In this document: in pieces, positions 38,481 through 53,649 of the stretch | Layout: every line of letters begins with the position of its first letter | Position numbering within the stretch: position 1 is the stretch's first letter | Source of the DNA: Streptomyces sp. AJS327 | GTDB taxonomy: Bacteria > Actinomycetota > Actinomycetes > Streptomycetales > Streptomycetaceae | DNA length: 64,000 bases | Reading direction: 5' to 3' | Assembly (NCBI RefSeq): GCF_013450295.1 | Contig: NZ_SKBR01000001.1 | Coordinates: forward strand, 62,001-126,000 | Translations under genes and position numbers: made by a program | Notes under the pieces: generated by a model | Seen by the model: the letters and a program-made list of their open reading frames with translations, nothing else | What the model was told of the DNA's origin: nothing | Databases searched by the model: none

Positions 38481-39269
38481 TCAGGACCGAGCGGGCTGCT
38501 GCCCGTCGAATCCCTTCATCCGGTCCAGTACGGCGTCCGCCGTCGGGTCCGCGAGATCGTCGACGATCCGGCCGTCCGCCAGGAAGATCACGCGGTCCGC
38601 GTAGGAGGCGGCGACGGGGTCGTGGGTGACCATGACGACGGTCTGGCCCAGATCGCTGACGGAGCGGCGCAGGAAGCCGAGGACCTCGGCGCCGGAGCGG
38701 GAGTCGAGGTTCCCGGTGGGCTCGTCACCGAAGATGATCTCGGGCTTGGCGGCCAGGGCGCGGGCGACGGCCACGCGCTGCTGCTGTCCGCCGGACAGCT
38801 GGTTGGGACGGTGCGTCAGCCGGTCTCCCAGACCGACGGTGCGCACCACGTTGTCCAGCCATTCCCGGTCGGGCTTACGGCCCGCGATGTCCATGGGCAG
38901 CGTGATGTTCTCCAGCGCGGTCAGCGTCGGCAGCAGGTTGAACGCCTGGAATATGAAGCCGATCCGGTCGCGCCGCAGCTGCGTCAGCTTCTTGTCCTTC
39001 AGCCCCGTCAGCTCGGTGTCCCCCAGCCGGGCACTGCCGCTGGAGACGGTGTCGAGCCCGGCCATGCAGTGCATCAGCGTCGACTTGCCCGAGCCCGACG
39101 GGCCCATGATCGCGGTGAACTCCGCGGCCCGGAACTCGACGGAGACCTGGTCCAGGGCGACCACCCTGGTCTCGCCCTGTCCGTAGACCTTGGACAGGTC
39201 CGTGGCCCGGGCCGCGGCCTCGCGCGTGGGGGCGGCCGGCGTTCCGCCAGGGTGGGTGGTGGTCGTCAC
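38481..39269 (-). CDS. MacB/LolD-type ABC transporter ATP-binding protein (system 2)
   Basis: This 262-aa ATPase has the same motifs as system 1: G-P-S-G-S-G-K-S-T, L-S-G-G-Q-Q-Q-R and D-E-P-T-G-N-L-D, and the central 110 residues differ from system 1 at only one position. The ends of the two proteins differ more. GTG at 39269 follows AGGAG at a good distance. It is transcribed towards permease 2. Shared ATPase sequence with diverged permeases suggests the two systems could exchange ATPase subunits or have undergone gene conversion. Confidence 0.93.
   Translation of the reverse strand: MTTTTHPGGTPAAPTREAAARATDLSKVYGQGETRVVALDQVSVEFRAAEFTAIMGPSGSGKSTLMHCMAGLDTVSSGSARLGDTELTGLKDKKLTQLRRDRIGFIFQAFNLLPTLTALENITLPMDIAGRKPDREWLDNVVRTVGLGDRLTHRPNQLSGGQQQRVAVARALAAKPEIIFGDEPTGNLDSRSGAEVLGFLRRSVSDLGQTVVMVTHDPVAASYADRVIFLADGRIVDDLADPTADAVLDRMKGFDGQQPARS
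38590..38987 (-). repeat. 398-bp inverted repeat, arm 2 (in ABC ATPase 2)
   Basis: Reverse complement of 10759-11156 with about 8 differences. The two arms face each other across 27.4 kb containing mfd, rpf, eno and ndh. Confidence 0.9.
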
Positions 39270-39765
39270 GGGGATCTCCTGTCGGGACGGGGGTGTATCA
39301 CGCCCACCATCCTCGCGAACAGCTCACCCGTTCGTATCAACCCCCGTGCCCGTTTCCGGGGGATCCCTCGGAGGTATGTCCGAGGGCGCCGGTCATTCCC
39401 AGGTAGGAGGGATCTTCTGGGACCACGGGAGGAGGACGGGACGGGAACGGAAGAAGGGCGCCGCGGGCGGCCTCTCCGACGGGTCTCCGACCGTCCCTCG
39501 AAGGGGTGGGAATCGGGTGCCCGGAACTGTGCAACTGAGAAGGAAGCAGACGGCCACTTTCCGTCATTCCTCGGCTCGAAGGCATATGCGCCTGTGCCTT
39601 CCGAAGTGCGCATGGGATCCTGACGGGGTGTCAACTGCCTTGCGAATGAGACAAGATCGGGTGGTTGAACCGATGTGCGAGGGGTCCGCCTGGATAGGCT
39701 CGCTCCTGCGCCCCGGGGGGAGGGGCCGCGCCCTCTGAGCGCGCGCTGCGGGCCCCGGAGCCAGT
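39270..39765. other. Gene-free region before the tRNA gene
   Basis: This roughly 500-bp stretch is less GC-rich than average and has no convincing gene. It should hold the divergent promoters of the ABC ATPase (leftwards) and the tRNA (rightwards). CTCGGAGGTATGTCCGAGG near 39368-39386 is a small inverted repeat. Confidence 0.45.
39695..39700 (+). promoter_or_regulatory. Candidate -10 box for the tRNA gene (TAGGCT)
   Basis: GGATAGGCT at 39692-39700 lies about 66 bp before the mature tRNA 5' end and equals the string before eno. No standard -35 is visible. Confidence 0.45.
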
Positions 39766-39850
39766 GCCCGGATGGTGGAATGCAGACACGACGAGCTTAA
39801 ACCTCGTTGGCCCTCAGGCCGTGCCGGTTCGAGTCCGGCTCCGGGCACCA
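39766..39850 (+). tRNA. bldA: tRNA-Leu, anticodon UAA (bldA type)
   Basis: The 85-nt gene folds as a class II tRNA: acceptor GCCCGGA / TCCGGGC plus encoded ACCA, anticodon stem ACGAG / CTCGT (39791-39795 and 39803-39807) with loop CTTAAAC, variable arm GGCC-CTCA-GGCC, and T arm GCCGG / CCGGC with TTCGAGT. The anticodon is TAA (39798-39800), so it reads UUA. In Streptomyces this is bldA, the only tRNA that reads the rare UUA codon and a switch for development and secondary metabolism. The sequence agrees with the bldA tRNA as I remember it. Confidence 0.95.
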
Positions 39851-40085
39851 CACCTCTCTCCCGGCCCCTCCTCACCGCTCCGGGCATCCGTCTCCCACGG
39901 CCCCCGGCCCCTCGCGGAGTCCCCGTTCCGTACCACCCGACGTCTCCCGAACACCCCTCGCGGCGCGCCGACTTCGCCTCGCGTCCACCCCACGTGCCCC
40001 ATCCGGGTGCCCCGTGCCGAGCGCCCGGGGTGCCGTACGTCGTCCACCGGGGGAGCGGGCCCGGGCCCGCCGGACCGGCCGCCGG

Positions 40086-40592
40086 TCAGCGACGGGCGTG
40101 CGGACACCGCCGCCGCCGCTGCCGCCGCCGGGGGGCGTCCAGCGACTGGAGGGTGGCGTAGGTGGCCAGCCCGAAGGCGAGGTGCGGGACGAGATCGCTG
40201 AGCCAGTCCGGCCCCGACCAGGTCCGCGGGTCGCTGACGCCCAGCGCCCCGATCGGCAGGTCGGTCGCCACCATCGCGCCGACCCCCGCCGCCACCGCGC
40301 CGACCGGCAGCGGCAGCCGCAGCCCCGCGTGGCGGGCCAGCCCGCAGACGGCGCCGACGGCGCAGCCCGCGCCGAGACCCGAGAGGGCGCCGAGCGCGGA
40401 GAGCCGGTTCGCGCGGGTCTCCGCGTCGCCGGGTACCACCACCCCCGCCTTGGTGGCCAGCGCCTCGGCCACCTCGGCCGGCACGTCGCTGGCTCCCCTG
40501 CCGCGCCACAGCATGTCGCCGTAGGTCACCGTGTTCAGGACGGTGGTGCCGACGGCGCCCGCCGCCGCGCCCCGGATCAGGCTCACGAACAT
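40086..40592 (-). CDS. Hypothetical integral membrane protein, 168 aa
   Basis: This 168-aa protein has hydrophobic segments at about residues 4-24, 68-88, 93-116 and 135-150, with the pattern S-L-I-R-G-A-A-A-G-A-V-G-T-T-V-L-N. The C-terminus is strongly Arg-rich. I do not recognise a family; similar Streptomyces proteins are unnamed. The ATG at 40592 follows GGGAG. It stands alone between the tRNA and the lectin gene. Confidence 0.65.
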   Translation of the reverse strand: MFVSLIRGAAAGAVGTTVLNTVTYGDMLWRGRGASDVPAEVAEALATKAGVVVPGDAETRANRLSALGALSGLGAGCAVGAVCGLARHAGLRLPLPVGAVAAGVGAMVATDLPIGALGVSDPRTWSGPDWLSDLVPHLAFGLATYATLQSLDAPRRRQRRRRCPHARR

Positions 40593-41282
40593 GACGCTCC
40601 CGTGCTGGGTACGAGAGGCCGCCGTGTGACGGCCGTACCTCCCACTGTTCGGGAGCCCGGCCCACACCGCAGCCGCGGGGGCGCCGTACTGCGCCGGATG
40701 GCTGGCGGCGACGCCCGCCAGACCGGCGCCCGGCGGTGACGGGGCCGGGCGGTACGGGACGGCGGTACGGGGACGGGCGGTAGGGGGTCGGCCCGCGTGC
40801 GTTCCTGGAGCGGGCCGTGGTTCCGGCTCCCGCGCGATGCCCGCGTATGCGCCCGCGCTAGGGGGCGCCCGTTCGGCGGCGAATGGCCGCCGGGTCGTGG
40901 GCCGCCGGTCAACTCCGCGACAGGGGTGTCGAGTTGAGACGGACCCGCCCTGCTCCCGCGGCCCTCACCCGGACCAAACCCCCTCTTCGGGTGACGGAGA
41001 GGACGACCTCCCGCCATCCGCGCCCGGCTCGCACGACCTGAAGCTCCCACTGCTGCGACGGAACGCCCGAATCTCCGTTTCGAAATGCGGGACCACCCTT
41101 AGGGGTGAAGCAGCGAAGAGGGCTATTCCCATTCGCCGGAGCGCGTTGGATTCTCCTCAGCAGATTCCATCGGTTTCGACGGGGTCCCCGGAAACGGGGA
41201 TTTCGGAAGAGGCTCGGGACGTCACGTCAGAAAGAGCCGCCAGACGTCCGGAATCGACAAACAAAAAGAAAGGTGTGGTTCC
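40593..41282. other. Gene-free 690 bp upstream of the lectin gene
   Basis: No gene is convincing. From about 41040 to 41282 the DNA is notably less GC-rich than its surroundings and ends with an A-rich stretch (AAACAAAAAGAAAGG) that contains the lectin ribosome site, so a promoter probably lies here. CCTTAGGGG-type words recur. Confidence 0.45.
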
Positions 41283-41843
41283 GTGAGTACTCGCTCGATT
41301 ATCCGCGGCGTGGCCACCGGCACGATGGCGGTCGCCATCGCGGCCGGAGGCGCCATGGTCTCCTCGCCACAAGCCGCCGCCACCGCTCCCCAGGAGCAGC
41401 GCGCCAGCGAGCAGGGGCGGTCCGCCCAGCAGCTCCAGTCGGTACGGATCAGGACCTTCGCCAACAAGTGCCTGGACGTGGCCCGCCGTTCGCACGCTGA
41501 TCGCGCGCCGATCATCCAGTACCGCTGCCATAACGCGCCGAACCAGAAGTTCCGCTTCGAGCGTGCTGGTCGTGGCCAGTACCGGATCAAGACGTTCGCC
41601 AACAAGTGTCTGGACGTGGAGCGGGCTTCGCACGCTGATCGCGCGCGGATCATCCAGTACCGCTGCACCAACGGGGCGAACCAGAAGTTCCGGGTGGAGC
41701 GTGCTGGTCGTGGCCAGTACCGGATCAAGACGTTCGCCAACAAGTGTCTGGACGTGGAGCGGGCTTCGCACGCTGATCGCGCGCGGATCATCCAGTACCG
41801 CTGCACCAACGCGGCGAACCAGAAGTTCCGGTTCCAGCGGTAG
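41283..41843 (+). CDS. Secreted protein with three tandem beta-trefoil (ricin-type) repeats
   Basis: This 186-aa protein has a signal peptide (hydrophobic 12-27, cut near A-A-A-T-A-P around residue 35) and three copies of a 46-residue unit: F-A-N-K-C-L-D-V, H-A-D-R-A-x-I-I-Q-Y-R-C, N-Q-K-F-R-F. N-K-C-L-D-V and N-Q-K-F are the hallmarks of ricin_B-like carbohydrate-binding repeats, here with Phe in place of the usual Trp. Each unit carries a Cys pair. Three repeats form one beta-trefoil. Repeats 2 and 3 are almost identical in DNA. No catalytic domain is attached, so it may be a free lectin or an inhibitor. GTG start after AAAGG. Confidence 0.85.
   Translation: MSTRSIIRGVATGTMAVAIAAGGAMVSSPQAAATAPQEQRASEQGRSAQQLQSVRIRTFANKCLDVARRSHADRAPIIQYRCHNAPNQKFRFERAGRGQYRIKTFANKCLDVERASHADRARIIQYRCTNGANQKFRVERAGRGQYRIKTFANKCLDVERASHADRARIIQYRCTNAANQKFRFQR
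41561..41836 (+). repeat. Two near-identical 138-bp tandem repeats in the lectin gene
   Basis: Repeat 2 (41561-41698) and repeat 3 (41699-41836) are identical over their first 112 bp and differ at a few later sites. Repeat 1 (about 41423-41560) is similar but diverged. Recent duplication within the gene, or conversion between repeats, is likely. Confidence 0.92.
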
Positions 41844-42010
41844 GTTCCGGGCGGGAGAGCCGCCCGGCGGCGTACCACGGTGCGGTCACCCCGTCGGGGT
41901 GAGCGCACCGGGTGCCCGCGTGCCGCCACCGCACAGGACAGCCGTGTACGGCGCAACCGCATAGTGAAAAGCCGCGTGCGCGGAGATGTCGCCGCGTTCC
42001 CGCGCACGTG

Positions 42011-42041
42011 TCCCGGCCTCCCCGGCCCTCTCGGGGAGGCC
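42011..42041 (+). terminator. Terminator hairpin after the lectin gene
   Basis: A perfect 12-bp stem CCGGCCTCCCCG / CGGGGAGGCCGG with a 7-nt loop is followed by CCCCTTT. The rest of 41844-42303 holds no gene; CCGGAGTTCCC-like words repeat near 42062-42115. Confidence 0.75.
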
Positions 42042-42303
42042 GGCCCCTTTCTGGAAGTTCCCCGGAGTTCCCCAGGTGCTTCCCGGAGTTCTCCCAGGGC
42101 TCGTGGAGTTTCCCGGAACCCCCCCGCGAGTATTTCCCTGATCCATCGACGGGGATTACCGTTCCTGCAAAAGCGTGGAGTCCACGGTGTGCGGAAAACG
42201 GTCTCCCTGTCCGGCTGACCGATCGGATGTCGCAGGAAACCGAACACGGACGGGCGAGAGCGCGGTCCGATTCCAGCGCGCCGGGTTTGAACGGCGCGAG
42301 CCG

Positions 42304-42591
42304 CTACGGCGCCTCGACGCCGGAGATCCGGTACCGCTGGACCGTCGCCTCCAGGAACTCGCCCACCTCCTCCTGGGCGGGGGCGTCGGCCTTCCGAAAC
42401 CGCTCCAGCGCCGCGTCGGACTCCCAGCGCTCGTACACGTTGACCCTCCCGGGGTCCACCGGGTCGGGGCTCAACGCGAAGTCGAGACAGCCCGGAGCAC
42501 TTCTCGCCAGCTCCGTCACCGACCGACAGCCCGCCAGGTAGGCGTCCCGGGTCTCGGTGGCCACGCGCAGGCTTCCGGCAATGATGATCAT
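42304..42591 (-). CDS. Antibiotic biosynthesis monooxygenase (ABM) domain protein
   Basis: This 95-aa protein has the ferredoxin-like ABM fold pattern: I-I-I-A-G-S-L-R-V at the start, C-R-S-V-T-E-L-A-R-S-A-P-G-C-L-D-F-A-L, then V-N-V-Y-E-R-W-E-S-D-A-A-L-E-R-F. Members range from quinone-forming monooxygenases to haem-degrading enzymes and stress proteins, so the substrate is open. GGAG precedes the ATG at 42591. It lies in the accessory stretch near the cyclic dipeptide genes, but a link is not shown. Confidence 0.8.
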   Translation of the reverse strand: MIIIAGSLRVATETRDAYLAGCRSVTELARSAPGCLDFALSPDPVDPGRVNVYERWESDAALERFRKADAPAQEEVGEFLEATVQRYRISGVEAP

Positions 42592-42883
42592 GGGCTCTCC
42601 TCCGCTCGTCGCTGGTGCCCCGCGCGACGGACCCGTACGGCCGCTCGGGCACACCACCCGGTGCGCCGTGCACCGGACGAGGAGGGAGACCACGCCCACC
42701 GTCGGAAGTCATCGCCCGAACCGGTCCCGTCCCGGCTCCGTCCGGTTCGCGTGTCCTCACCGGGGTCCGATCCGTGCGGCGGTGACGCCTTCCGCGCCGG
42801 GGAGCGTGGTCCCGGGAGTGGGGGGCCGTTGCCCGGGGACGGGGCGTCCTCGCCCCCGGGCCGCGTCGCACGCGCGTACCGGG

Positions 42884-43534
42884 TCAGAGCACCGGTATCT
42901 CGCGGCGCTGGCTGCCAGGAGTGAAGCCGAGCAGCGTCGCCGTCGCGAGTCCGGCGCCGACATCGTGCTGGGACCGGTCGGCCAGCATCTCCAGTGCCGA
43001 GCCCAACTCCCCCTCGTCCAGGCGTCCTTCACCCGCCGCCATCAGCAGCTCGTCGAGGCGTCGCTGCACCTCGTTCAGGCTGTCCTGGTCGTCGCGCGTG
43101 AGGAACTCCGCGAGCCGGTCGGCGAGTCGCTTCCCCGAGTCCATCGGACGTCCCGCGATGTGCGTGCCGTTGGTCTCCACCGCGGAGCCCGCACAGCGCC
43201 AACTCCCGTCCTCCCACCAGAAGCAGAAGCCCACGGGGTCCATCCGCTGCTCCTGGAAGCAGTAGGCGGCCCAGTCCGGGGCGCCGGTCAGCAGCTCGTC
43301 CTCCTTGAGCGGTTCGCTGTGCTCCACGTCGTAGCCGCTCAGTACTGCCCGGTCGCCCTCAACCCAACTGATCTCCCAGCCACTGCCGTTGGCGTCGTCG
43401 TACCAGAGTCCGGTGGCCATGGTCGCCCACTGGCCGAGTGAGCTGAGGTCCGCCGCCGAGTTGAGAGTTGCCATGACCCCGCCTTCGATCCAGTGGCACT
43501 CGGGCGGCGGCGGGGTGTAGGCGGCGTGGGGCAT
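42884..43534 (-). CDS. Hypothetical protein, 216 aa
   Basis: I do not recognise a family. The N-terminal half has Trp-rich strand-like sequence (H-W-I-E-G-G-V, W-Y-D-D-A-N-G-S-G-W-E-I-S-W, C-F-W-W-E-D-G-S-W-R-C-A-G), the C-terminal half is helical with charged heptads (L-N-E-V-Q-R-R-L-D-E-L-L). It has no signal peptide or membrane helix. GAGGAG precedes the ATG at 43534. The 5' side faces a gene-poor region with a TATACC on its strand near 43718 as a possible -10. Confidence 0.65.
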   Translation of the reverse strand: MPHAAYTPPPPECHWIEGGVMATLNSAADLSSLGQWATMATGLWYDDANGSGWEISWVEGDRAVLSGYDVEHSEPLKEDELLTGAPDWAAYCFQEQRMDPVGFCFWWEDGSWRCAGSAVETNGTHIAGRPMDSGKRLADRLAEFLTRDDQDSLNEVQRRLDELLMAAGEGRLDEGELGSALEMLADRSQHDVGAGLATATLLGFTPGSQRREIPVL

Positions 43535-44080
43535 GGCTGGCTCCTCGGTGAATGACTGCGATGTCGTTGTCGAGCAGGGGCGGGAGCGACCGGGGGACCG
43601 CTCGCCGGGCCGGGAAGCGCACCCGTTCCGGGAGGCCGTGTCGCGACCGGGGGCCGGGACTCCCGTGCGATCGCGCTGTCCGGACATCTGTTCCGCTCAT
43701 GGTCGTGGAGGAGAAGGTATAGCCGAACTACCCCCCGGAGCGCGAGAAGTTGCCGCGATCATCGCCCGGCCCCGGTCTCCGGCCACTCGGCGGGCGGTGA
43801 CGCGGCGCGGCGCGCGCGCCGGGGCCCGCTACTACGACGAGAGTGGGAGCCCGGGCCGGGACGGGGCCGGGAGTGGGAGCCCGGACCGGGGCCTGGTCGG
43901 CCGCACGCGGCGGCGGTCGCCGGAGGTGGTACCCCAGGGCGCCGCCCGCCGAGACGTGGCAGGGGCTGCCACATCGCGCGGGCGGCGCCGGGCGCGCGTA
44001 CCGTCCCCTCGGTCCGCGCCTGACGCGATCCCCCATGGCGGGTGCCCGTCGGGGTGGCTCGGGGCGCCTCGCTCGCGTCG

Positions 44081-44134
44081 CCCGTGGTCCGGCTCCGGCA
44101 TGAACTTCCCCCGGCGCCGGAGCCGGACCACGGG
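44081..44134. other. Isolated 19-bp perfect inverted repeat
   Basis: 44081-44099 and 44116-44134 are perfectly complementary over 19 bp, with a 16-nt loop. No called gene ends nearby: the closest on the left runs away from it and the AlbA-like gene starts 700 bp to the right. Confidence 0.85.
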
Positions 44135-44788
44135 TGGACTTCGACCGTCCGAATCCGGTGGGCCGCTGAGCGGTCGTCAGCCCACCGCGCGGCCCAGCCA
44201 GCCGAGTTCACCAGGCGGTCCGCGGTTTCCGGGGGACGGTCGTCCACCGCGTCCCGGGTGGTGCGCCACGGTGGGCGATGGACGGCCGGTCGTTCCCCCG
44301 ACATGACGATCCTCGTCAGTGCGGGATTCCAGATCAAGGGACTTCTGATTCGAAGCGGACGCCGATCCATAGGGGATCGTCTATCGGTCAACGGCTTCGA
44401 CTCTGGGTGGCGGCCCGGACCAGGCGGCCCGTCGGCTGGCCCAACGCCCCTGCCATACCCGTCGGTTGGCCTCCGTATGCACCGCGGTGCCGCCACCGGC
44501 GGGCACCGGAGGCGGAGGGCCCCGAGTCGCGCGGGTGCGGGCGGGCGGTGTGGCGGGGCGCGTCGCGTGCTCCGGGAAGGTGCGTGACTCGACGGTGTGC
44601 GGGGCGCGTTCGGTGACACGCGCGGGCGCGCGGCGGATCGTGGGCGGCGCTTCCACCGGAGGGGTGCTGAGATGTTGTTTTCGGACGGAACATTTCCTGT
44701 CCACATCCGAGTCGCACCACCGCTGTTGTGAACGGTAAAGGCCGTTTGAAAGCCAACTCCCGCGCAGGCCTGGGGCGGTGTGGTTTCG

Positions 44789-44817
44789 TTGTCACTCGGA
44801 AAGGTGAGATGTAATCG
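44789..44817 (+). promoter_or_regulatory. Possible promoter of the AlbA-like gene (TTGTCA-17-TAATCG)
   Basis: TTGTCA at 44789-44794 is 17 nt from TAATCG at 44812-44817. The -10 match is moderate; TATATC just downstream is an alternative. Both sit about 22-28 nt before the start codon. Confidence 0.35.
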
Positions 44818-44839
44818 TATATCGCTGTGAGTGCGCGTG

Positions 44840-45451
44840 ATGAGTCCGTACGTGGGATATACCAGAGACGTGGTTGTAGACATTGCATCTCAGGCGTCCG
44901 CATCCGCGCTGTCCCCCGAGCAGTTCGTGGATGTGCAGCGATCCCGGAGCGCGGTGCGCAGCTATACCGCGGAACCCATCTCGGACGAGACCGTGCGGAC
45001 CCTCGTGACCGCGATGCTGGCCGCCCCTTCCGGTGGCAACAAGCAGGCGTGGTCCTTCGTCGTCGTGCGGGATCCCGGAAACCTGCGCCGTGTCCGGGCC
45101 TTCGCGCCCGGAGTCATCGGCGCGCCGACGCTGCTGCTGGTGGCGTGCGCCGACAACCTGCGCGGCAAGGACGACCCCATCGTTCGGCGGGTCGGCAAGA
45201 TGTGCGTGGCGATGGCCGTGCAGAACTTCCTGCTCGCCGCGCACGCACACGGTCTGGGCGGCTGCCCGATCAGCAGTTTCCGTACCGCCCCGCTGGCCCT
45301 ACTCCTCGATCTGCCACCCCATGTCGAGCCCGCGCTCCTGGTGCCCGTAGGGCGTCCCGCCCGCGAGCCCGAGCGATCGATCCGTCTCCCGCAAGAAGAA
45401 GTGGTCAGTTATGAAGCCTTCGGACAAGGCACTCCCCCCACGACTCCATGA
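44840..45451 (+). CDS. AlbA-like cyclic dipeptide oxidase subunit (nitroreductase fold)
   Basis: This protein of about 203 aa has the nitroreductase fold and reads closely like AlbA of albonoursin synthesis: S-A-V-R-S-Y-T-A-E-P, M-L-A-A-P-S-G-G-N-K-Q-A-W-S-F-V-V-V-R (FMN site), R-A-F-A-P-G-V-I-G-A-P, C-V-A-M-A-V-Q-N-F-L-L-A-A-H, G-L-G-G-C-P-I-S-S-F-R, and V-V-S-Y-E-A-F-G at the end. Together with AlbB, AlbA dehydrogenates cyclic dipeptides at the alpha-beta bonds using O2. The start is uncertain: ATG at 44840, with in-frame GTG codons just before it and no clear ribosome site. The next gene starts 41 bp before this one ends, as reported for albA/albB. Confidence 0.85.
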   Translation: MSPYVGYTRDVVVDIASQASASALSPEQFVDVQRSRSAVRSYTAEPISDETVRTLVTAMLAAPSGGNKQAWSFVVVRDPGNLRRVRAFAPGVIGAPTLLLVACADNLRGKDDPIVRRVGKMCVAMAVQNFLLAAHAHGLGGCPISSFRTAPLALLLDLPPHVEPALLVPVGRPAREPERSIRLPQEEVVSYEAFGQGTPPTTP

Positions 45452-45746
45452 GGATCTGGTCCTGCTCGCCGGGCACTTGCTGAGTTGCGCCAGCGGACTG
45501 GTGGAAGAACCCGCGTACTACGGCATTTTCCGGTGTATGGACAGTGCCCGGCGCACTCTGGAGGTGCTGGCGGAACACGCCGAACTCGATCCCCGACTCG
45601 CGGAACTCCGGGACGAGTTGGAGCGCACGGTGTCCGGGGCGCAGAACGGGCAGTCCGTCGAGGAGTTCCTGGACGACGTATGCCTCCGGATGGCCCGGAT
45701 CGTGAAGGAGGGCGCGGAGGAGCGGACTCCGAGCGTCTCCGTCTGA
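45411..45746 (+). CDS. AlbB-like small subunit of cyclic dipeptide oxidase (DUF6092 type)
   Basis: This 111-aa helical protein has L-H-E-D-L-V-L-L-A-G-H-L-L-S-C-A-S-G-L-V-E-E-P near the start, then Y-Y-G-I-F-R-C-M-D-S-A-R-R-T-L-E-V-L, features of the AlbB/DUF6092 group. AlbB is required for activity and stability of the AlbA oxidase, with which it forms large filament-like complexes. Its start codon ATG at 45411 lies inside the end of the AlbA-like gene, which implies coupled translation in equal amounts. A 10-bp hairpin follows its stop. Confidence 0.8.
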   Translation: MKPSDKALPPRLHEDLVLLAGHLLSCASGLVEEPAYYGIFRCMDSARRTLEVLAEHAELDPRLAELRDELERTVSGAQNGQSVEEFLDDVCLRMARIVKEGAEERTPSVSV

Positions 45747-45781
45747 GCCGGGCCACGGCCCTCTCGCCGGGGGCCCGGCTC
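45745..45781 (+). terminator. Hairpin directly after the AlbB-like gene
   Basis: GAGCCGGGCC and GGCCCGGCTC form a perfect 10-bp stem with a 17-nt loop, and the stem overlaps the stop codon. It may separate the oxidase genes from the synthase gene. Confidence 0.55.
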
Positions 45782-46442
45782 CTCCCCGCCGGGCGCGGGA
45801 GGGCCGTGCACCACCATCCCGTACTCGCCGGAACGTGGCCCCCAACCGCCGTGGCGGTGCCAGGTCCCCGTGTCCGCCCCAACTCACCTCCGCCGCCCAC
45901 CAGTAGTGGCTCCCACGGCGCCACGGTGCCGGACTCCGGCGGGTTCCGCTCCCGCTCGGTCCACCTCCCGTGCGGCACCGCCCGCGAGGGGCACCTCTCG
46001 CCCGACCCGTCTCGCACGAACCCCACGCCTCAACCCCGGCGGAACGAAAGGTGCCGGACGTGCCCACGGGTCAACTGACTCCGAGAGAGGGCGATGTGGG
46101 CCGCTCCCTCGCTCCATGACCTCTGACTCCCCGTCCGCTCCGCCGTGTTCGGGGCGGCACGCCCGCCGCGCGACCTCCCGGGCTTCGGCCGGGATGTCCG
46201 CCCGGAGCCCCAACCACCCACGTTCCGGGGGCGGTCGCCGCTCCCCGACACCGACCCAGACTCTCCAGCACGCCGCCCCGGACCGAGCTTCCGGCCCGGT
46301 CCGCCGCGGGCGAGGCGTGCGCCCACCGTCCCACCAGCCCCCGCGTGCCGGCTGAACGACTCGGGGGTGGCTACCCGTGCCCGCCCTCCGCGTACGCCTC
46401 GCGCCGCCTGGAGGACGGATCCCGCAGAAGGAGTGCGCAACC
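45782..46442. other. Gap of 660 bp between oxidase and synthase genes
   Basis: No intact gene is seen on either strand; the DNA is GC-rich with few structural features. In the albonoursin cluster the synthase gene follows closely, so the gap is unusual. The AAGGAG at 46430 serves the synthase gene. Confidence 0.45.
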
Positions 46443-47195
46443 ATGGACTACGCGGACCCGCTGGATCTCGTGGCTGATTTCGTGGTGCAGCCGTTCGACC
46501 ACCGAAGCCGGATGATCTGGCGCCGGGGCCACCACGTCCTGATCGGCGTCAGCACCGGGAACAGCTACTTCAGCGCCGACCGCATGGTCGCGCTCCTCCG
46601 CTGGGCCCAGCGCAACTTCCAGCAGATCGACCTGGTCTGCGCCGACACCCACATCGACAGCATGCTCATCGCCAACGGTGAGGAGCCCGAGGAGGCCGCG
46701 CGCCGGGCGAAGCGCCGCGTCAAGAGCGTGCTGCGGCGCGTCCGGCAGGCCACCGCGGCCGTCTCGGACGCCGCGCCGCTCCCACGGCACCACCTGCTCT
46801 CGGACTTCCTCCAGGTCCCGGAGTACCGCGTCCTGCGCGAACGCGTCGACGAGGCGCTCCGCGGCGACCAGGACTTCATCGACGCCTGCGAGTTCATGGT
46901 CACGCGTTTCCTGCTGGCCAAGGAGGCGTCGGACAGTGACGAGCCGGATCCGCGGCAGCTCCGGGCGGGGCTGGACTACCTCGCGAACGAGCTGCCGTTC
47001 TTCGTGGACACCCCGAGCATCCTCAACGTCCCCTCCTCGGTGTCGAGTTACCACCTCTTCCCACCGGTGGTGGCGCCGCTCTTCGGCCGGGAGACCGGCC
47101 TGCGCGCCGTGGAGGACCAGGCGTTCATGGTGGTCAGACCAGCTTCGGCACCCGGGGCGGCGCCCGGCGCGGTGGCCGGCCGGCCGATGGGCTGA
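46443..47195 (+). CDS. tRNA-dependent cyclodipeptide synthase (AlbC-like, NYH subfamily)
   Basis: This 250-aa enzyme takes two aminoacyl-tRNAs and makes a cyclic dipeptide. The catalytic Ser is Ser37 in G-V-S37-T-G-N40-S-Y-F, the position used in AlbC. Tyr179 and Glu183 (D-Y-L-A-N-E-L-P-F-F) match the second catalytic pair, and Y203-H204 complete the N40-Y-H signature of the NYH subfamily. The basic helix R-R-A-K-R-R-V-K-S-V-L-R-R-V-R at about 87-101 would bind tRNA. AAGGAG stands 9 nt before the ATG. The adjacent AlbA/AlbB-like genes predict oxidation of the product. The amino acids used cannot be stated from sequence alone. Confidence 0.92.
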   Translation: MDYADPLDLVADFVVQPFDHRSRMIWRRGHHVLIGVSTGNSYFSADRMVALLRWAQRNFQQIDLVCADTHIDSMLIANGEEPEEAARRAKRRVKSVLRRVRQATAAVSDAAPLPRHHLLSDFLQVPEYRVLRERVDEALRGDQDFIDACEFMVTRFLLAKEASDSDEPDPRQLRAGLDYLANELPFFVDTPSILNVPSSVSSYHLFPPVVAPLFGRETGLRAVEDQAFMVVRPASAPGAAPGAVAGRPMG

Positions 47196-47476
47196 GACCC
47201 AGCGCCCGTACCCACGCGACGCACCTCCGCCCCGCCACACCGCCGTCGGCCCTGACGCGCGGCAAGTGACCGACGAGCGACGGGCGTTGGACACGACCGG
47301 CACGCAGGGGCCGATCGACGACGCGGGGAAGGATCGACCGCGCAGGGACCGATCGACCACGAAGGGCGCGATCGATCACCAACCGGGGTTCCGTGCCGCC
47401 GCGTTGGGGCACGCGGGCTCGGGCGAGGAGCGGGGCCGGCGGGTGGGAGTCGGGTTCCGCGCTGAGTCAGCTCAGG
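47196..47476. other. 281-bp convergent gap with GATCGACC repeats
   Basis: Between the synthase and the copper protein genes there are four GATCGA(C/T)-type words (about 47311-47380) spaced 22-32 nt. They could be a protein-binding array or simple repeat DNA. Confidence 0.35.
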
Positions 47477-47887
47477 TCAGCTCATAGCCAACAGCAGTTC
47501 GTCACAGGCGCGTTCACACCGGCGGCAGGCCTCGGCGCAGATCCGGCAGTGCTCGTGACGGTCGCCGTGCAGCTCGCACTCGTCCGCGCACGAGCGGCAG
47601 GCCGTGGCACAGGCCCGTAGCTGGGAGAGGGTGATGTTGGCGTCGTAGCCCGTGTGCCGGGAGAGCACCCGGCCGGTCACGTCGCAGATGTCCGCGCAGT
47701 CCAGATCGGTACGGACGCACTTGACCAGCTCGACGACGTGCGGCTCGGCCAGACAGGCGTCGGCGCAGGCGGTACACGCCTGGGAACAGGCCAGGCACTC
47801 CTGGATGCAGCGGGTGAGCTTCTCGCGGTTCACCCCTCCCAGGTCGGCGGGGTAGGTGCGCACCATGTCGTTCACTGCTGTGGTCAT
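47477..47887 (-). CDS. Cys-rich four-helix-bundle copper-binding protein (DUF326/Csp type)
   Basis: This 136-aa protein has 18 cysteines placed along helices in C-x3-C, C-x2-C patterns: C27/C31/C34/C38/C41/C45, C57/C64/C68, C93/C97/C100/C104, C114/C117/C121/C124/C128. This is the layout of copper storage proteins (Csp), which load many Cu(I) ions in the core of the bundle. It has no signal peptide, so it is the cytosolic Csp3-like form. ATG at 47887 is chosen; one in-frame ATG lies 15 nt upstream. It converges on the synthase gene. A functional tie to the cyclic dipeptide genes is not shown. Confidence 0.88.
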   Translation of the reverse strand: MTTAVNDMVRTYPADLGGVNREKLTRCIQECLACSQACTACADACLAEPHVVELVKCVRTDLDCADICDVTGRVLSRHTGYDANITLSQLRACATACRSCADECELHGDRHEHCRICAEACRRCERACDELLLAMS

Positions 47888-48862
47888 GTCGTTCCGCCTC
47901 ATTCTCACGTCGTGCGGTCTCGCGGCACCGCGTTCCCGGTGCCGGGCGGTGCGGTGCCCGCGCCCTCGGCGGGCGACGCGGCCCGCCCACGGGCCGTGCG
48001 GGACCGGGTAACACGCCTCCGGAGGGCGCAAACCGTGGCCGTACGCGGAGACCGGCCACTGGCGGTGTTCCGGAACGCCGGGTGCCCGGCGGTGCCGGGG
48101 CGCCGCTGCGGGGAGGGCGTGGGCGGTGGGGAGGGGGCGCTCGCGTCCGAGCGGGCTTCCGGCCGCCGACGCGAGGGGACGACGCTCCGCGCACAGCCCG
48201 TCGGCGGTGACCGGCGGGCGGCGAACCGCCGGCGGGGCAGGCTCCGGCCCCGTCCGCTCGTCCGGCGGGGGCCGCCGAGGCGACGGGCCCACCTGGAGGG
48301 ACGCGGGCCGGGGGAGGTCCTCGTGGCGACCCGTGCGGGGGCGGCCCCTGGCGCCGGAAGGCGGACCGGACGGGCCGTCCCGCGGGGCGGCGGCGGGCTC
48401 CCCCGGATGGCGCAGCCCTCCGTTCCGCTACGTGTCGCTCAAACACACGTGGCGATTGGGGAGTTGAGGTACGAACGCCCCTCTCGAATACCAGGCATGT
48501 ACCCCGTTTGCCACGTTTCCCCGTGCGTCGCACGCTCGTTGGTGGGTATGTGCCTGAGACCGTGCTCCGCGCCTTCCGCTCTCCGGGCGGCGCGCTCCGT
48601 CCGCCGGGTGGATCGTGCCCACGATCGCCCGGTGTATCCCCCGACGCCAACAGCCCGCAGGGCGTGGTGCCGGGGCGTCCGCGGAGTGGAAAGCCCGGAC
48701 TGTGCGGCGGAATTCTCGACGGCTTCCTGCGGATATGGAATCGCCGCAGCCCCGTGGACCGCGGTTGTTCAGACAGGGGCTGATCACCACCGTCACGTCA
48801 AGCCGTCCGCCGCACAGTCCACCGTCGCCTCGCGTCGCACCCTCCCCGAGACAGGGAAAGCC
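47888..48862. other. Gene-poor stretch of about 970 bp
   Basis: I find no gene on either strand that reads like a protein. Around 48430-48560 the DNA is less GC-rich (ACACACGTGGCGATTGGGG and nearby), perhaps control sequence. The interval may hold decayed genes. Confidence 0.4.
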
Positions 48863-49651
48863 TTGCACGAAACCCAGCCCTTCGCGTCTCACTTCCCGTA
48901 TGCCGGAAGCCCACACGACACCGTGGAGTTCCGCATCCCGGACGACATGTCCGCCACCACCTCGCCGTCGGACACCTGGTCCAAGCAGACCGCCGTCTGC
49001 CCGTCCGACGTTGTCCCGGAAGCCCGGCCCGTCCGGAACACGCGGGACGATGACCGCGAAGGGCTGGAAGCGGCGCTGGCCCGCCTCCTCGACACCCCGG
49101 AACGCTTCGTTCAGCCCAGATCGGACTGCCCCCACGTGCTCGGGCGGCACCGCAAGCGCCGGAACCGGCAGGCCGAGCAGGGCGACCGCGAGGGGTCCTC
49201 GCTGACCTGGCAGGGGGTACTGAGTCTCACCTCGGTGGTGCTCACGGCGCTGATCATGGTGCTGGTGAGCGTGCTGGGTGCGATCGTCTCCTACGAGCCG
49301 CTGCGGCGGCTGGCCGCCGACACCGGGCCGCCGGTCATGGCCGAGTTGTGGCCCCTGCTGATCTACGCCCCCTGGGTGGCCGCGACCCTCTCCGTCCTGC
49401 GGAACCACGCGGACCGGCGCCGTGCCAAGCACTCCTGGCTGGTCGTGGTGTTCTTCGCGGTCGTCGCGATGGTGCTGTGCGTCATCAGCGCCCCGCACAC
49501 GCCCGCCGGGATCACCGTCGCCGGACTCCCGCCCATCACCGTGCTGCTCTGCTTCCACCAGCTCGTCTGCCAACTCGACCTGGCGCACACCGTCTCGCGC
49601 TCCCCACGGCACGCGGGCACCCCGCGTGCGAACCGCCGCGTCCACCCCTGA
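48863..49651 (+). CDS. DUF2637-type membrane protein
   Basis: This protein of about 262 aa has a hydrophilic N-terminal region (about 1-110, with an Arg-rich R-H-R-K-R-R-N-R) and four or five membrane helices: S-L-T-W-Q-G-V-L-S-L-T-S-V-V-L-T-A-L-I, P-L-L-I-Y-A-P-W-V-A, W-L-V-V-V-F-F-A-V-V-A-M and the last around G-L-P-P-I-T-V-L-L. It fits DUF2637, a family that also occurs in Streptomyces conjugation proteins (SpdB). The start is uncertain: TTG at 48863 follows GGGAAAG, while GTG at 48922 and ATG at 48949 remain options. Its function is unknown. The hairpin at 49678 ends the unit. Confidence 0.65.
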   Translation: MHETQPFASHFPYAGSPHDTVEFRIPDDMSATTSPSDTWSKQTAVCPSDVVPEARPVRNTRDDDREGLEAALARLLDTPERFVQPRSDCPHVLGRHRKRRNRQAEQGDREGSSLTWQGVLSLTSVVLTALIMVLVSVLGAIVSYEPLRRLAADTGPPVMAELWPLLIYAPWVAATLSVLRNHADRRRAKHSWLVVVFFAVVAMVLCVISAPHTPAGITVAGLPPITVLLCFHQLVCQLDLAHTVSRSPRHAGTPRANRRVHP

Positions 49652-49677
49652 CGTCACCGGCGTCCCGCCGTATCCCC

Positions 49678-49706
49678 CGATGGCCCGTGCACCGCGCGGG
49701 CCATCG
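49678..49706 (+). terminator. Terminator hairpin after the DUF2637 gene
   Basis: A perfect 10-bp stem CGATGGCCCG / CGGGCCATCG with a 9-nt loop. The gap to 50283 has a pyrimidine-rich tract (about 49740-49800) and no gene. Confidence 0.65.
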
Positions 49707-50283
49707 TGCCGTGTAGCGGGCCGCTCCTGTCTCCGCCCGGTCCTCGTGCCCCTTCTCCTGCTTCTGTCTCCTCCTCTCCGCTCCTCTCGGGACGTTTCGC
49801 GAGCGGTGCCCGGCACCCGGGTTCTCGTCCCGGCCGCTCCGGGCGTTCCGGACCCCCTCCCGGTTTTCCGCCCGCTCGGGACGTCCCCGACCGCGTCCGC
49901 CCCGGAGCGTCCCGCGGTGACTCCGGTGCGTTCCGCGCGGGTCGCGTCCGTATGAGTCGCGTTTCCTACCGAGTCGCGGGTCGCGCTCCGTGGCGCCGGG
50001 GTCCGCCCCGTGCCGTCCGCCGGGGGCCGGGAACCTGCCCCGGCGCTGGTCAGCGGGGGTTTTCCGCGGGCTACCGGGCCGTCTCCGGGTGCCGGGTACG
50101 GCGGTCGCTGTCATGGTGGGACAGGTGTTCTGACGTCGGTGTGCCCGGTGCCCCGGCCGACTCCCCGAGCGAGTCACCGCCGTCGACGAGACGGCCGCCC
50201 GGCCGAGGGCGCGGGCCCCGAACACCGCACTGTCAGCGCCGTGGCCCCGAGGGCGCGGACGCGTGACACGAGAGTGAGGCTTC

Positions 50284-51363
50284 ATGGCCACCACAGGGCA
50301 ATCGCGGCCCAGGGCGCGCCGCTCCCGGCACAGTCACCATGACGCGCCGGACACGGCCGCCGACTTCGCCCGGCTGGAACGGCTTCCGGACGGCGCGGAA
50401 AAGCGCAGGCTCCAGCAGGAGGTGGCCGCCGCCTGGCTGCCCATGGCCTACCGGCTGGCACGGAAGTACCGCAACCGGGGCGAGGCGCTGGAGGATCTGG
50501 AGCAGATCGCGGCGCTCGCGCTGGTCAAGGCCGTCGAGGGGTACAACCCGTCCCGGGGCTGCGCCTTCGAGTCGTACGCGATCCCCACCATCTACGGGGA
50601 GTTGAAGCGGCACTTCCGGGACAACCTGTGGGACGTGCACGTGCCCCGCCGGGTGCAGAACCTGCGGAATCGGGTCCGGGTGAGCATGCAGGACCTGAGC
50701 GGGGGCAGCCGCGCGCCGACGGTGGCGCAGCTCGCCGAGCACGCGCGGCTGTCGGAGGAGGACGTCCAGCTGGGACTGGAGGCGCTGCACGGCTTCAGTT
50801 CGCTCTCGCTGGACGCGGAGGTGCCCGGCGCGGACAACGGCTACAGCCTGCTCGACTCACTCAGCGTGCAGGAGGCGGACTACGAGCACGTCATCGACCG
50901 GGAGGCGGTCAAGAGCCGCCTGCGCTGTCTCCCGGAGCGCGAACAGTACATCCTCTACCTGCGCTTCTTCCGGGAGATGACGCAGTCGGGGATCGCCCGG
51001 CAGCTGGGCATCTCCCAGATGCACGTCTCCCGGCTCATCGCCGGAGCCTGCCGCCGGGTCCGCGAGGAGATCGACGGGGACCAGGGAGGCGAGCCGGACG
51101 ACCCCGGCCCGCCCGTCTCCCGCGACTCGCCCAGCCCCCCTGGCTCGCCCGTTTCGCCCCGCCCGTCCAACTCCCCCCGTACTCCCGAGACTCCCGGATC
51201 CTCGCCCACCAGGGGGCCCTCGGGTGCTCCCGGCCCACCTGGTTCTCCGGGTTCCCCCGGGGCCCCCGACGCTCCCGGTGCAGCCGGTCCAGCCGGTTCA
51301 CGGGGTTCCTCCGATGCTTCCGCTGAGCGGGGTGAGGCGCCGGGCCCGCACGGCCACCCCTGA
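50284..51363 (+). CDS. SigB/SigF/SigG-family sigma factor with a collagen-like tail
   Basis: This 359-aa sigma factor has region 2 (about 50-115: Y-R-N-R-G-E-A-L-E-D-L-E-Q-I-A-A-L-A-L, G-C-A-F-E-S-Y-A-I-P-T-I-Y-G-E-L-K-R-H-F-R-D), region 3 (about 118-190: P-R-R-V-Q-N-L) and region 4 (about 215-265: L-P-E-R-E-Q-Y-I-L-Y-L-R-F-F, then Q-S-G-I-A-R-Q-L-G-I-S-Q-M-H-V-S-R-L). This is the stress and development group of Streptomyces. After residue 270 comes an unusual Pro/Gly/Ser tail of about 85 residues with Gly-x-y triplets. No anti-sigma factor gene is adjacent. The ATG at 50284 follows GTGAGG. Confidence 0.92.
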   Translation: MATTGQSRPRARRSRHSHHDAPDTAADFARLERLPDGAEKRRLQQEVAAAWLPMAYRLARKYRNRGEALEDLEQIAALALVKAVEGYNPSRGCAFESYAIPTIYGELKRHFRDNLWDVHVPRRVQNLRNRVRVSMQDLSGGSRAPTVAQLAEHARLSEEDVQLGLEALHGFSSLSLDAEVPGADNGYSLLDSLSVQEADYEHVIDREAVKSRLRCLPEREQYILYLRFFREMTQSGIARQLGISQMHVSRLIAGACRRVREEIDGDQGGEPDDPGPPVSRDSPSPPGSPVSPRPSNSPRTPETPGSSPTRGPSGAPGPPGSPGSPGAPDAPGAAGPAGSRGSSDASAERGEAPGPHGHP

Positions 51364-51547
51364 GGTCAGCGCGTCGGTCCGCCCGGGTCGCTCGGGGCGG
51401 CAGGTCGCTCGGGTCGGCCGGATCCACCTCGTCCGCTCGGTCTGGCTGGTTCGCTCGGGCGATCTGGTCCGGCCGGTCGAGCCGGTCCGCCGGGTCTGCT
51501 GGTCCGCCGGGTTCGCTGGGAGGCCGACCCCGGGCGGTCTCTGGCGG

Positions 51548-53059
51548 TCAGCCCGCCCCGTCCCCGCCACCCGGTTCCCGCCGTCCTCGCTGTTCTCCGC
51601 GATCTCCTCGATCTCCGCGATCTCCTCGATCTCCGCGATCTCCGCGATCTCCGCGATCTCCGCGATCTCCTCGATCTCCTCGATCTCCGCGTTCTCCCGG
51701 TTTCCCGCGCGCTCCCCGTGCTCGGCGGTCCCTCCCTTGTCCCCGTTCCCGAGGAGCCGGTCCTGCCCTCCCTTCCCCACCCCTCCCCACCCCGCCGTCG
51801 CTGCTGTCGTCGTCCTCGGGTGGGGGCTGGGCGCCGCCCTCGGAGTGCGCGGAGGCGAACTCCTGGATCAGCCGGTCGGTGTCGGTGAGCAGCAGTCCCT
51901 GGCTGAGCCAGGCCCCGGAGCCGTCCGTGCCGCCGGAGGCCAGCTCGTGGTGGCGTTCGCGCGCCTGGTCCAGGGTGCGGAGCAGCGGGTTGCCGCCGTC
52001 CTGTTCGTCCTCGGCGCCGATCAGTTGGGTGGCTTCTGACAGGTCGCCGACGAGCCTCCCGTACGCGCGCAGGAAGGCGCTGTCGGGGGCGGGCGGCCCC
52101 TGTTCCTCGTCGATGATCCGCAGGAGGCCGTAGCAGATGCTGCGGATCTGCTCGGCGGCCCGGCCCAGCCCCTCGACGAGGACGCGGTATCCGGCGAAGA
52201 CCACCGGGGTGTCCCGGCGCAGCAGCCGCCGGGGGTTGTAGACCACGCTCTCGGCGCCCCGTTCCACCGCGTCCCTGGCCTGCGCGACGGTGTGGTCGAG
52301 TCGGCGGGCGCGGTGCAGCCAGTCCGCCACCGTGTCCCGCTCGGGCAGACCGCCGTCGAGCCCGGACCCGATGTCCCGGAGCAGCACGCGCAGCGACCGC
52401 GCGAGTTCGCGGATGCCCCGGGCGGCGGTGGTGTGCCGCAGCGGCGGGAAGAGCAGCACCGCGACCGCGATACCGACCATCGCGCCCAGCAGCGCCATCA
52501 TGATGATCTGCCAGAGCATGGACTGGTAGCTGCCGGAGAGCGCGTTGTACGCGAAGACGCCCGCGACGGACACCTGCACGCCCTGACTGCCCAGCCGTCG
52601 CCAGCGTCCGATGAGCAGGGTGACGGCGAGCATGGCGGCGAAGGCCCCCGGGTTCTGGCCCAGGAGCGGACCGGCCGCCCCGGCGGCCAGGACCCCGAGG
52701 AGGACGGCCGCGATGTAGCGGACGGACTGGAGCACCGAGCGGTACGCGGTCGACTGCACCACCAGCAGCGCGGTGAAGGGCGCGTAGGTGGGCTGGGGCG
52801 AGGCGACGACGTACTCGGCGAGGACCCAGGCGAGCACCCCGGCGACCCCGCTCTTGAGGAGCAGCACCAGGGTCTCCCGTTCGGGTCCCCGGGTCTGCCG
52901 GGCCCGGCGCAGCCGCGCGCGGACCCGGTCGTACGTCCGCTGGGAGCGGTGGGGCCGTTCCGGTGCTCCGCTGTTCGGTTCGTCGTCCGCGGTGGCGCTC
53001 GCGCTCAATGCTCCCTCAGCTCCCCACTCACCGGCCGGGCTCGGCGCGGAACCCAACAT
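51548..53059 (-). CDS. FUSC family membrane protein (aromatic acid exporter-like) with GDR-repeat tail
   Basis: This protein of about 503 aa has membrane helices between about residues 55 and 215 (V-L-L-L-K-S-G-V-A-G-V-L-A-W-V-L, Y-A-P-F-T-A-L-L-V-V-Q-S-T-A-Y-R-S-V, then A-A-V-L-L-G-V-L-A-A-G-A-A-G). The motif S-x2-R-x6-G in Y-R-S-V-L-Q-S-V-R is typical of FUSC/ArAE efflux proteins. A helical cytoplasmic domain follows, then an Arg/Gly-rich tail with about ten Gly-Asp-Arg triplets from a 9-bp tandem repeat. The start is uncertain (ATG at 53059; TTG at 53008 possible). The substrate is unknown. It converges on the sigma factor gene. Confidence 0.78.
   Translation of the reverse strand: MLGSAPSPAGEWGAEGALSASATADDEPNSGAPERPHRSQRTYDRVRARLRRARQTRGPERETLVLLLKSGVAGVLAWVLAEYVVASPQPTYAPFTALLVVQSTAYRSVLQSVRYIAAVLLGVLAAGAAGPLLGQNPGAFAAMLAVTLLIGRWRRLGSQGVQVSVAGVFAYNALSGSYQSMLWQIIMMALLGAMVGIAVAVLLFPPLRHTTAARGIRELARSLRVLLRDIGSGLDGGLPERDTVADWLHRARRLDHTVAQARDAVERGAESVVYNPRRLLRRDTPVVFAGYRVLVEGLGRAAEQIRSICYGLLRIIDEEQGPPAPDSAFLRAYGRLVGDLSEATQLIGAEDEQDGGNPLLRTLDQARERHHELASGGTDGSGAWLSQGLLLTDTDRLIQEFASAHSEGGAQPPPEDDDSSDGGVGRGGEGRAGPAPRERGQGRDRRARGARGKPGERGDRGDRGDRGDRGDRGDRGDRGDRGDRGDRGEQRGRREPGGGDGAG
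51601..51690 (-). repeat. Ten tandem 9-bp units in the FUSC gene
   Basis: GATCTCC(GC/TC) repeats ten times without a break and encodes Gly-Asp-Arg triplets on the minus strand. Copy-number change would alter the length of the tail without breaking the frame. Confidence 0.95.
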
Positions 53060-53649
53060 CCCGCCCACGGGGCCGGGTTGGGCGACCCGGCGTACCGGCC
53101 CGTGGAGCGGGTGCCCGGGGTCCGCGCCTCCCGGGAACGCGTCCCCCGGGGCGGGGGAGACCGAACGGGCCGAACGGGGGCCGAACGGGGGCGGGCCGGG
53201 GGCGGCGGCCCGAGGGTCCGCCGGTCTGGCCGGGGTGGCGGGAGACGGGACGTGGTGGGCGCGGGGCGTGGTGGGCGCGGGCGCGGGGGCCGTCGGGGTG
53301 GGGTGGGGCGCGGACGGGAGGGGGTGGAGCGGGACGGGCGGGGTGGTGTGGGTGATGTCACGGGCGCGCCACCGTGGCCCCGCCGCCCGGCCACGGGCTG
53401 GTGCCGGAGGGTCATCCGGCGGGTGTCGGACGGGGTTCGGCTGGGTAGCGGTGCGCAGAGGCCCGCTCCCTCCGGGTGCCCGATACGGTGAAGGGGTGCC
53501 GCGAGGACGGGAACACCCCCGGAACGAGTGGCCGTCGGGGGGAACAATCATGTCTCTTTTCTTCGTTCCTCCCTGTGCAGTAACGTGCTGGTTTTGCTAA
53601 CGCATTACTCTGGACGCAAGGCCGTGCCGTGCGGCCATGGAGGAGTGAG
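53060..53649. other. Divergent intergenic region between FUSC and Bax-inhibitor genes
   Basis: About 590 bp without a gene. 53150-53360 is strongly G-rich on the + strand. 53540-53640 is less GC-rich and should carry the promoter of the Bax-inhibitor gene (TTTTGCTAACGCATTACTC around 53591), though I cannot fix the boxes. Confidence 0.4.

Follow-up and report, generated by a model that had tools for sequence, protein, structure and literature searches.

A predicted Trp-first cyclodipeptide synthase and an oxidase of apparently different lineage share one locus in Streptomyces sp. AJS327

Does a locus that has the gene order of the albonoursin cluster also direct the formation of albonoursin, and why does its synthase gene lie so far behind its oxidase genes? 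This question is raised by a 64,000-nt stretch of the genome of Streptomyces sp. AJS327 (contig NZ_SKBR01000001.1, positions 62,001 to 126,000 of the forward strand; the window, whose numbering is used below), in which an earlier note, made from the sequence without database searches, had recognised an albonoursin-like pathway with a split gene order. By sequence, the locus holds three real genes, for a predicted cyclodipeptide synthase (CDPS) and a predicted two-subunit cyclodipeptide oxidase (CDO). It is well formed and belongs to a known kind of pathway; unusual are the pairing, two residues of the active site and the way in which known parts are combined, and we do not see in it a new kind of system. 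The explanation that we consider probable is that Trp-tRNA and a second, probably aromatic, aminoacyl-tRNA are joined to cyclo(L-Trp-L-X), the non-Trp residue of which is desaturated, and that synthase and oxidase A subunit (CDOA) belong to different lineages. The coding features are the following:

44831–45451, plus strand: CDOA, predicted AlbA-like, flavin mononucleotide (FMN)-dependent oxidase subunit A, 206 amino acids from the first start
45411–45451, plus strand: overlap of the CDOA and CDOB reading frames, 41 nt, both frames intact
45411–45746, plus strand: CDOB, predicted AlbB-like oxidase subunit B, 111 amino acids
46443–47195, plus strand: NYH-type CDPS with a predicted Trp-type P1 pocket, 250 amino acids, PF16715 (2.5e-70)

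CDOA, for which in-frame starts are present at 44831, 44840 and 44870 and the true start is uncertain, belongs to PF00881 (1.3e-25, Pfam), with AlbA (8uc3_A, 1.4e-51) as the closest solved structure by sequence and NdasCDO-A (9exv_A, 4.6e-44) also matching. CDOB belongs to PF19585 (6.2e-22, Pfam) and is closest to AlbB (8uc3_D, 4.8e-21). The two genes adjoin and overlap, as expected of an AlbAB-type oxidase, and the overlap is exactly the 41 bp given in the earlier note; candidate overlaps of the same length were seen in three other loci (L089, L090, L122). The synthase scored far above the family cut-offs (PF16715, 237.1 bits against 27; TIGR04539, 239.3 bits against 45), has AlbC as its closest solved structure by sequence (5e-58) and is assigned to the CDPS fold. 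A short way upstream of its ATG at 46443 stands AGAAGGAG, and an alternative in-frame GTG start lies farther upstream at 46377. In AlbC numbering, the catalytic set comprises Ser37, the trio N40-Y202-H203, Y178 and E182; the window synthase keeps all of it as S37, N40, Y179, E183, Y203 and H204, including the four residues that the earlier note had named, each at its position. The gene order is A-B-C, as in the albonoursin cluster, so that no order is split and only the spacing is wide.

The amino acid pockets of the synthase point away from albonoursin. In CDPSs, pocket P1 is described as being lined by eight residues and P2 by seven (PMC5816076). In our alignment with characterised NYH-type enzymes, a comparison proposed in the earlier note, the window synthase reads LGVALFFS in P1 and MRFALPP in P2, and AlbC reads LGVVLLFL and MAVNITP; P1 thus differs from that of AlbC at three of eight positions. 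LGVALFFS is listed in Table 2 of PMC5816076 for a characterised synthase with W assigned to P1 and Y to P2, and (V/I)A at P1 positions 3 and 4 is tied there to Trp over Phe. The window synthase carries VA at these positions, AlbC VV, and its P1 conforms to the Trp-first pattern LG(V/I)ALFFx. In the synthase tree, it falls in one clade, that of the guanitrypmycin (gut) clusters, with the enzymes of S. monomycini, S. varsoviensis, S. rimosus, S. niger and HNM0574 (support 100/99). Derivatives of cyclo(Trp-Tyr) (cWY) and cyclo(Trp-Phe) are reported for S. monomycini and S. varsoviensis (PMC7954767), and cWY plus some cyclo(Trp-Trp) (cWW) for S. rimosus (PMC7487605). Given the P1 motif and the products of these clade-mates, cyclo(Trp-X) is predicted, with Trp as first residue and X being Tyr, Phe or Trp. 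The product, which the earlier note had held not to be predictable by eye, can be predicted in its first residue; for P2, which is described as non-predictive (PMC5816076), no match to a characterised motif was found. The suspicion that the product may differ from albonoursin is supported by the Trp-type P1 and by the tree, where forcing the synthase into the AlbC clade was rejected (approximately unbiased (AU) test, p = 0.000555); by sequence, the label albonoursin-like is likely wrong with respect to the product.

The oxidase A subunit follows a different tree. CDOA groups with proteins of Actinosynnema sp. CS-041913 (P0069) and S. iconiensis (P0074) at a support of 97/95; the less well supported group around these three (91/86) also takes in L048, L074 and L128 and lies away from the guanitrypmycin-type A subunits. 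Forcing CDOA together with the latter was rejected (AU p = 3.3e-5), and so was forcing the synthase together with those of L048, L074, L128 and P0038 (p = 0.00103). By these sequence trees, the locus is a mosaic. The G+C content at third codon positions is 0.79 for CDOA, 0.81 for CDOB and 0.94 for the CDPS, with 0.86–0.96 for the other 12 genes computed. Such re-pairing is not unique to the window: L095 and L100 have sister synthases (100/98) but A subunits from different clades.

The CDOA proteins of Goodfellowiella (L048) and Saccharopolyspora (L074) are 60–61% identical to the window CDOA and share its short E2 loop, as does the same-genus L128, but their synthases have other P1 motifs (LGLVLFFN, LGMVLFFA and VGITMFFV) and a Methyltransf_2 gene lies near each. 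The gut clusters (S. monomycini L035, S. varsoviensis L036, S. rimosus L037 and kin) have the synthase clade, the Trp-type P1 and a CDO pair in common with the window, and an X-desaturated cyclo(Trp-X) is expected of them as well; however, their synthase gene comes first, with CDOA-CDOB more than 1 kb behind it and a P450 gene between (tested in L033 and L035), whereas in the window CDOA-CDOB come first, CDOA is of another lineage and no P450 adjoins. Among the Pfam-scanned neighbours (42304–43687 and 47477–51363), no P450, methyltransferase or prenyltransferase was found. The albA-albB-albC cluster of S. noursei shares gene order, CDOA/CDOB overlap and an NYH synthase with the window, which differs by its Trp-type P1, a synthase outside the AlbC clade, a 696-nt gap and Gly for AlbA Ser54. 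The nocazine CDO (Ndas_1146/1147) is likewise two-subunit with an FMN-linking Cys and a catalytic Tyr, but keeps Ser58 and Met77 and is paired with a different synthase type.

For AlbAB, a filament is described with FMN bound to AlbA Cys115 and with AlbB Tyr37 as proposed base (PMC11055893). CDOA keeps the FMN-linking Cys as Cys125, together with R39, R43, N70, C145, P146 and R185, and CDOB keeps E33, P34, the catalytic Tyr37 and R41. Two sites deviate: Gly69 of CDOA replaces AlbA Ser54, the Ser above the flavin, and Gln78-Asn79 of CDOB replace AlbB Met78-Gly79. Ser54 is proposed to assist the catalytic Tyr and is called highly conserved; the AlbA S54A variant is given as ~62-fold slower (PMC11055893), and NdasCDO S58A as impaired, not dead (PMC11760959). 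Among 80 CDOA rows, the window included, the position holds 55 Ser, 13 Ala and 12 Gly (CDOA counts exclude L123, L129, L148 and L149, which have no FMN-linking Cys, and L124, a broken hit; CDOB counts exclude L123, L129 and L149). The Ala/Gly rows include S. rimosus (L037) and S. aidingensis (L100), whose oxidases are reported to work in E. coli, yielding cW-dehydroTyr and cW-dehydroLeu (PMC7487605). Since Ser54 is replaced in working CDOs, it was not taken as defining. By analogy, the oxidase is expected to be active and to desaturate the residue other than Trp: for three CDOs with Trp-type synthases, the solved products are cW-dehydroTyr, cW-dehydroPro and cW-dehydroLeu (PMC7487605). The loop after V-A-C-A-D does differ, as the earlier note had observed, with 20 residues against 25 in AlbA, but the same length was found in five of 11 other rows measured (L048, L074, L125, L128, P0074), and P0069 has 19 residues.

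On the model of characterised relatives, the pathway would run as follows. The synthase would join Trp-tRNA with the aminoacyl-tRNA of X to cyclo(L-Trp-L-X), and the two-subunit FMN oxidase would introduce a single Cα–Cβ double bond into X with O2 as acceptor, as in the cW-dehydroTyr of S. rimosus, giving probably a mono-dehydro cyclo(Trp-X) in which X is aromatic and desaturated. A and B dimers may form a filament, and the A/B overlap likely couples translation of both subunits. If so, the locus would be a further Trp-first synthase-oxidase pathway, here with no P450 next to it, and would indicate that synthases and oxidases have been re-paired independently, giving natural support to their mixing in the laboratory.

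Several points weigh against this explanation. MRFALPP corresponds to no characterised P2 motif, the best of 15 compared rows, a cWW row, agreeing at four of seven positions, so that the assignment of X is tentative. Gly at the Ser54 position could, by analogy with the AlbA variant, lower activity, and the Gln of CDOB stands at the counterpart of NdasCDO-B Met77, which covers the active site. A second dehydro-cWY isomer of S. rimosus is given as structurally unsolved, and CDO2 of A. oligospora is reported to have barely converted its own cWW, which other CDOs do convert (PMC7487605); oxidation is therefore less sure if X is Trp. For CDOB, a short protein, a guanitrypmycin-type placement was not rejected when it was tested by itself (p = 0.0621), and its grouping with an S. 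rimosus oxidase (L125) that has no synthase near is weak (91/81), so that the mosaic rests on CDOA and CDPS. Finally, the stretches at 39.3–42.3 and 48.3–50.2 kb, which yielded no candidate gene in a listing based on G+C content, lay outside the Pfam scan.

A true albonoursin pathway, in which cyclo(Phe-Leu) would be formed and four hydrogens removed by the oxidase, has the A-B-C order and the same three families in its favour; we regard it as very improbable, given the Trp-linked VA in a P1 that departs from AlbC, the rejected AlbC clade, and the spacing in five AlbC-type loci (L118–L121, L127), where synthase homology starts -4 to 74 nt after the B stop. Improbable, too, is a guanitrypmycin-type pathway in which a P450 encoded elsewhere in the genome adds a nucleobase to dehydro-cyclo(Trp-X). 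The synthase does belong to the gut clade, and the genome gave 12 matches to the P450 of the HNM0574 cluster, the best-scoring one (C1:2195750) being 37% identical and the second-best, in the window, 39%; but no P450 adjoins, and CDOA lies outside the gut lineage. Identities of 37–39% are ordinary for actinobacterial P450s. The P450 gene of the window (23918–25348; match 24131–25306) is situated 19 kb from the cluster near an enolase gene, and we take it to be probably a core gene and not part of the cluster.

That the oxidase is dead or nearly so, leaving unoxidised cyclo(Trp-X) as product, is unlikely. The Gly at Ser54, the Gln-Asn at Met78-Gly79, the slow AlbA variant and the lowest third-position G+C of the 15 genes computed all fit such decay; on the other hand, both frames and their overlap are intact, the FMN-linking Cys, Tyr37 and Arg41 are kept, and 25 of the 80 CDOA rows, the E. 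coli-active oxidases of S. rimosus and S. aidingensis among them, carry Ala or Gly in place of Ser54.

The replacement of Ser54 was found to go along with the type of synthase, Ser being absent in 11 of 12 rows whose synthase is of the Trp type and in one of 14 others. In this count, unassayed rows were typed as Trp by us from the motif, L144 and NdasA are identical yet both counted, and P0105 was paired with P0006 by inference only. As a marker of Trp specificity, Ser54 was not adopted: only three and four trait changes fall on the tree, and the resulting 2–3 independent pairs are too few for a sign test to reach significance. A wider reading, which we offer tentatively as a possible but not a likely one, is that a gut-type Trp-first synthase was re-paired with an unrelated oxidase lineage, that Ser54Gly is a substrate switch opening the pocket for the indole, that Trp pathways can do without the 'catalytic' Ser, and that the re-pairing left the gap as its joint. 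For the mechanism of the oxidase, a question arises here: the residue proposed to assist the Tyr is lacking in working relatives and in the window, mostly where the partner is a Trp-type synthase. In the portions of the literature covered by our search (including PMC13122648, PMC6173783 and PMC10092475, with supplements outside it), neither Ser54 replacement in Trp-type oxidases nor mosaic synthase-oxidase pairs were found described.

The wide spacing behind the oxidase genes involves two further features:

45747–46442, no strand: apparently non-coding gap from the CDOB stop to the synthase ATG, 696 nt, G+C content 0.766
45744–45810, plus strand: G+C-rich hairpin after CDOB, -45.9 kcal/mol, z -1.5

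The earlier note had put the gap at 660 bp and the synthase 700 bp farther on; the wide gap is real, and its exact length is 696 nt, or 630 nt if the synthase starts at the GTG. A hidden gene appears unlikely, as each of the six frames contains at least one stop and second-position G+C is 0.73–0.81 in every frame compared with 0.42–0.64 in the 15 genes; third-position G+C alone would leave one frame per strand possible (0.81, the same as CDOB). An Rfam search of the gap gave no match.

For comparison, 30 loci besides the window were assembled from 13 of 68 named loci with CDO subunits by tblastn and 17 stretches around PF19585 hits in other genomes, omitting five duplicates (G449 = L033, G559 = L034, G048:C2 = L037, G508 = L090, G753 = L078, also L146). 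In 13 of them, the order on one strand is CDOA-CDOB-synthase, and the first homologous codon of the synthase follows the B stop at -4 to 146 nt. The synthase comes first in five, with CDOA/CDOB more than 1 kb behind and a P450 between them in the two tested by Pfam, and lies on the opposite strand in another five (the synthase match of L124 being weak, 29%); in the remaining seven, no synthase was found in the stretch, and four of these have A-like proteins without the FMN-linking Cys. Distant or oppositely placed synthases are thus common, and the gap of the window is the longest of the 14 same-order loci, the other 13 all having 146 nt or less.

The gap with its hairpin had been taken in the earlier note to suggest separate control of product formation and oxidation; as a control element, it would comprise a terminator after the oxidase genes and a promoter of its own for the synthase. 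The length of the gap, unusual among same-order loci, and the strong hairpin directly after CDOB fit this idea, which we nevertheless consider rather doubtful. The hairpin is present but close to chance, its stability being matched by 12 of 200 shuffles, and it was absent from the terminator-like sites of the scan, the only such site in 44400–47600 being at 44645 (1.0 expected). Moreover, 11 of the 36 gaps between the genes of a hand-made list of the window reach or exceed this length, the gap itself being one of the 11. A promoter scan of 44400–47600 gave no site (0.1 expected), either in the gap or upstream of the oxidase genes, and because of the latter it says little about the gap in either direction. 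Separate control is thus unsupported. Most simply, the gap would be a joint from the synthase gene coming to lie behind the oxidase pair, and an assembly scar left by re-pairing is our preference, though unproven. None of 40 other genomes matched more than 49 nt of it, the matches listed being of 35–49 nt only (G001, G005, G299 and one 39-nt piece elsewhere in the own genome); 44600–47900 as a whole was matched in 25 of 41 genomes, the own included, with 393 nt, in the gene downstream of the synthase, as the longest match outside the own locus.

The cluster is situated in a variable slot between conserved core chromosome genes. In six relatives, CMAS-FtsX-ABC and Bax1 occur in the order of the window, the distance from the ABC match to the Bax1 match being 443 to 7,443 nt there and 14,359 nt in the window; in the same six, the eight window genes of this interval were all without a match at E 1e-5. 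Of 15 same-genus relatives, 14 carry a close FtsX match on the contig that also holds Bax1, at distances of about 1.2 to 36 kb; G010 has no close FtsX match there. The names of the closest proteins likewise point to Streptomyces as the genus. The slot itself, between the ABC-transporter and Bax-inhibitor genes, spans 38481–53629 in the window and differs widely in length among relatives, some others having a longer one than the six. PF19585 occurred in 8 of 291, 8 of 391, 7 of 394 and 10 of 392 genomes, in draws that overlap and that all contain the own genome; at 7–10 per draw, such B subunits are rare in these genomes. A search of plasmids with CDOB gave no match.

Some further observations were made. 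Just behind the synthase, on the minus strand (47477–47908), lies a gene for a Csp/DUF326-type copper-storage-like protein; it has 75% DNA identity over 393 nt in G006, a genome with no PF19585 match. A ParE-like toxin gene (PF05016, 4e-12) is present at 30762–31031 on the minus strand. The two genes of the second CDO of S. rimosus (L125:5074–6379) point away from each other, A on the minus and B on the plus strand, and no synthase was found in the surrounding 12.5 kb; with the window CDOB as query, the B subunit of this CDO (51%) was the one further protein found. The own genome encodes a second CDPS (L002:1357–2118, on G000:C5, minus strand; 254 amino acids, PF16715 53.6 bits), which adjoins a 2-oxoglutarate-Fe(II) oxygenase gene (PF03171, L002:332–1357, minus strand) and has the residues VYP close to its C-terminus, in line with the name of the XYP subfamily.

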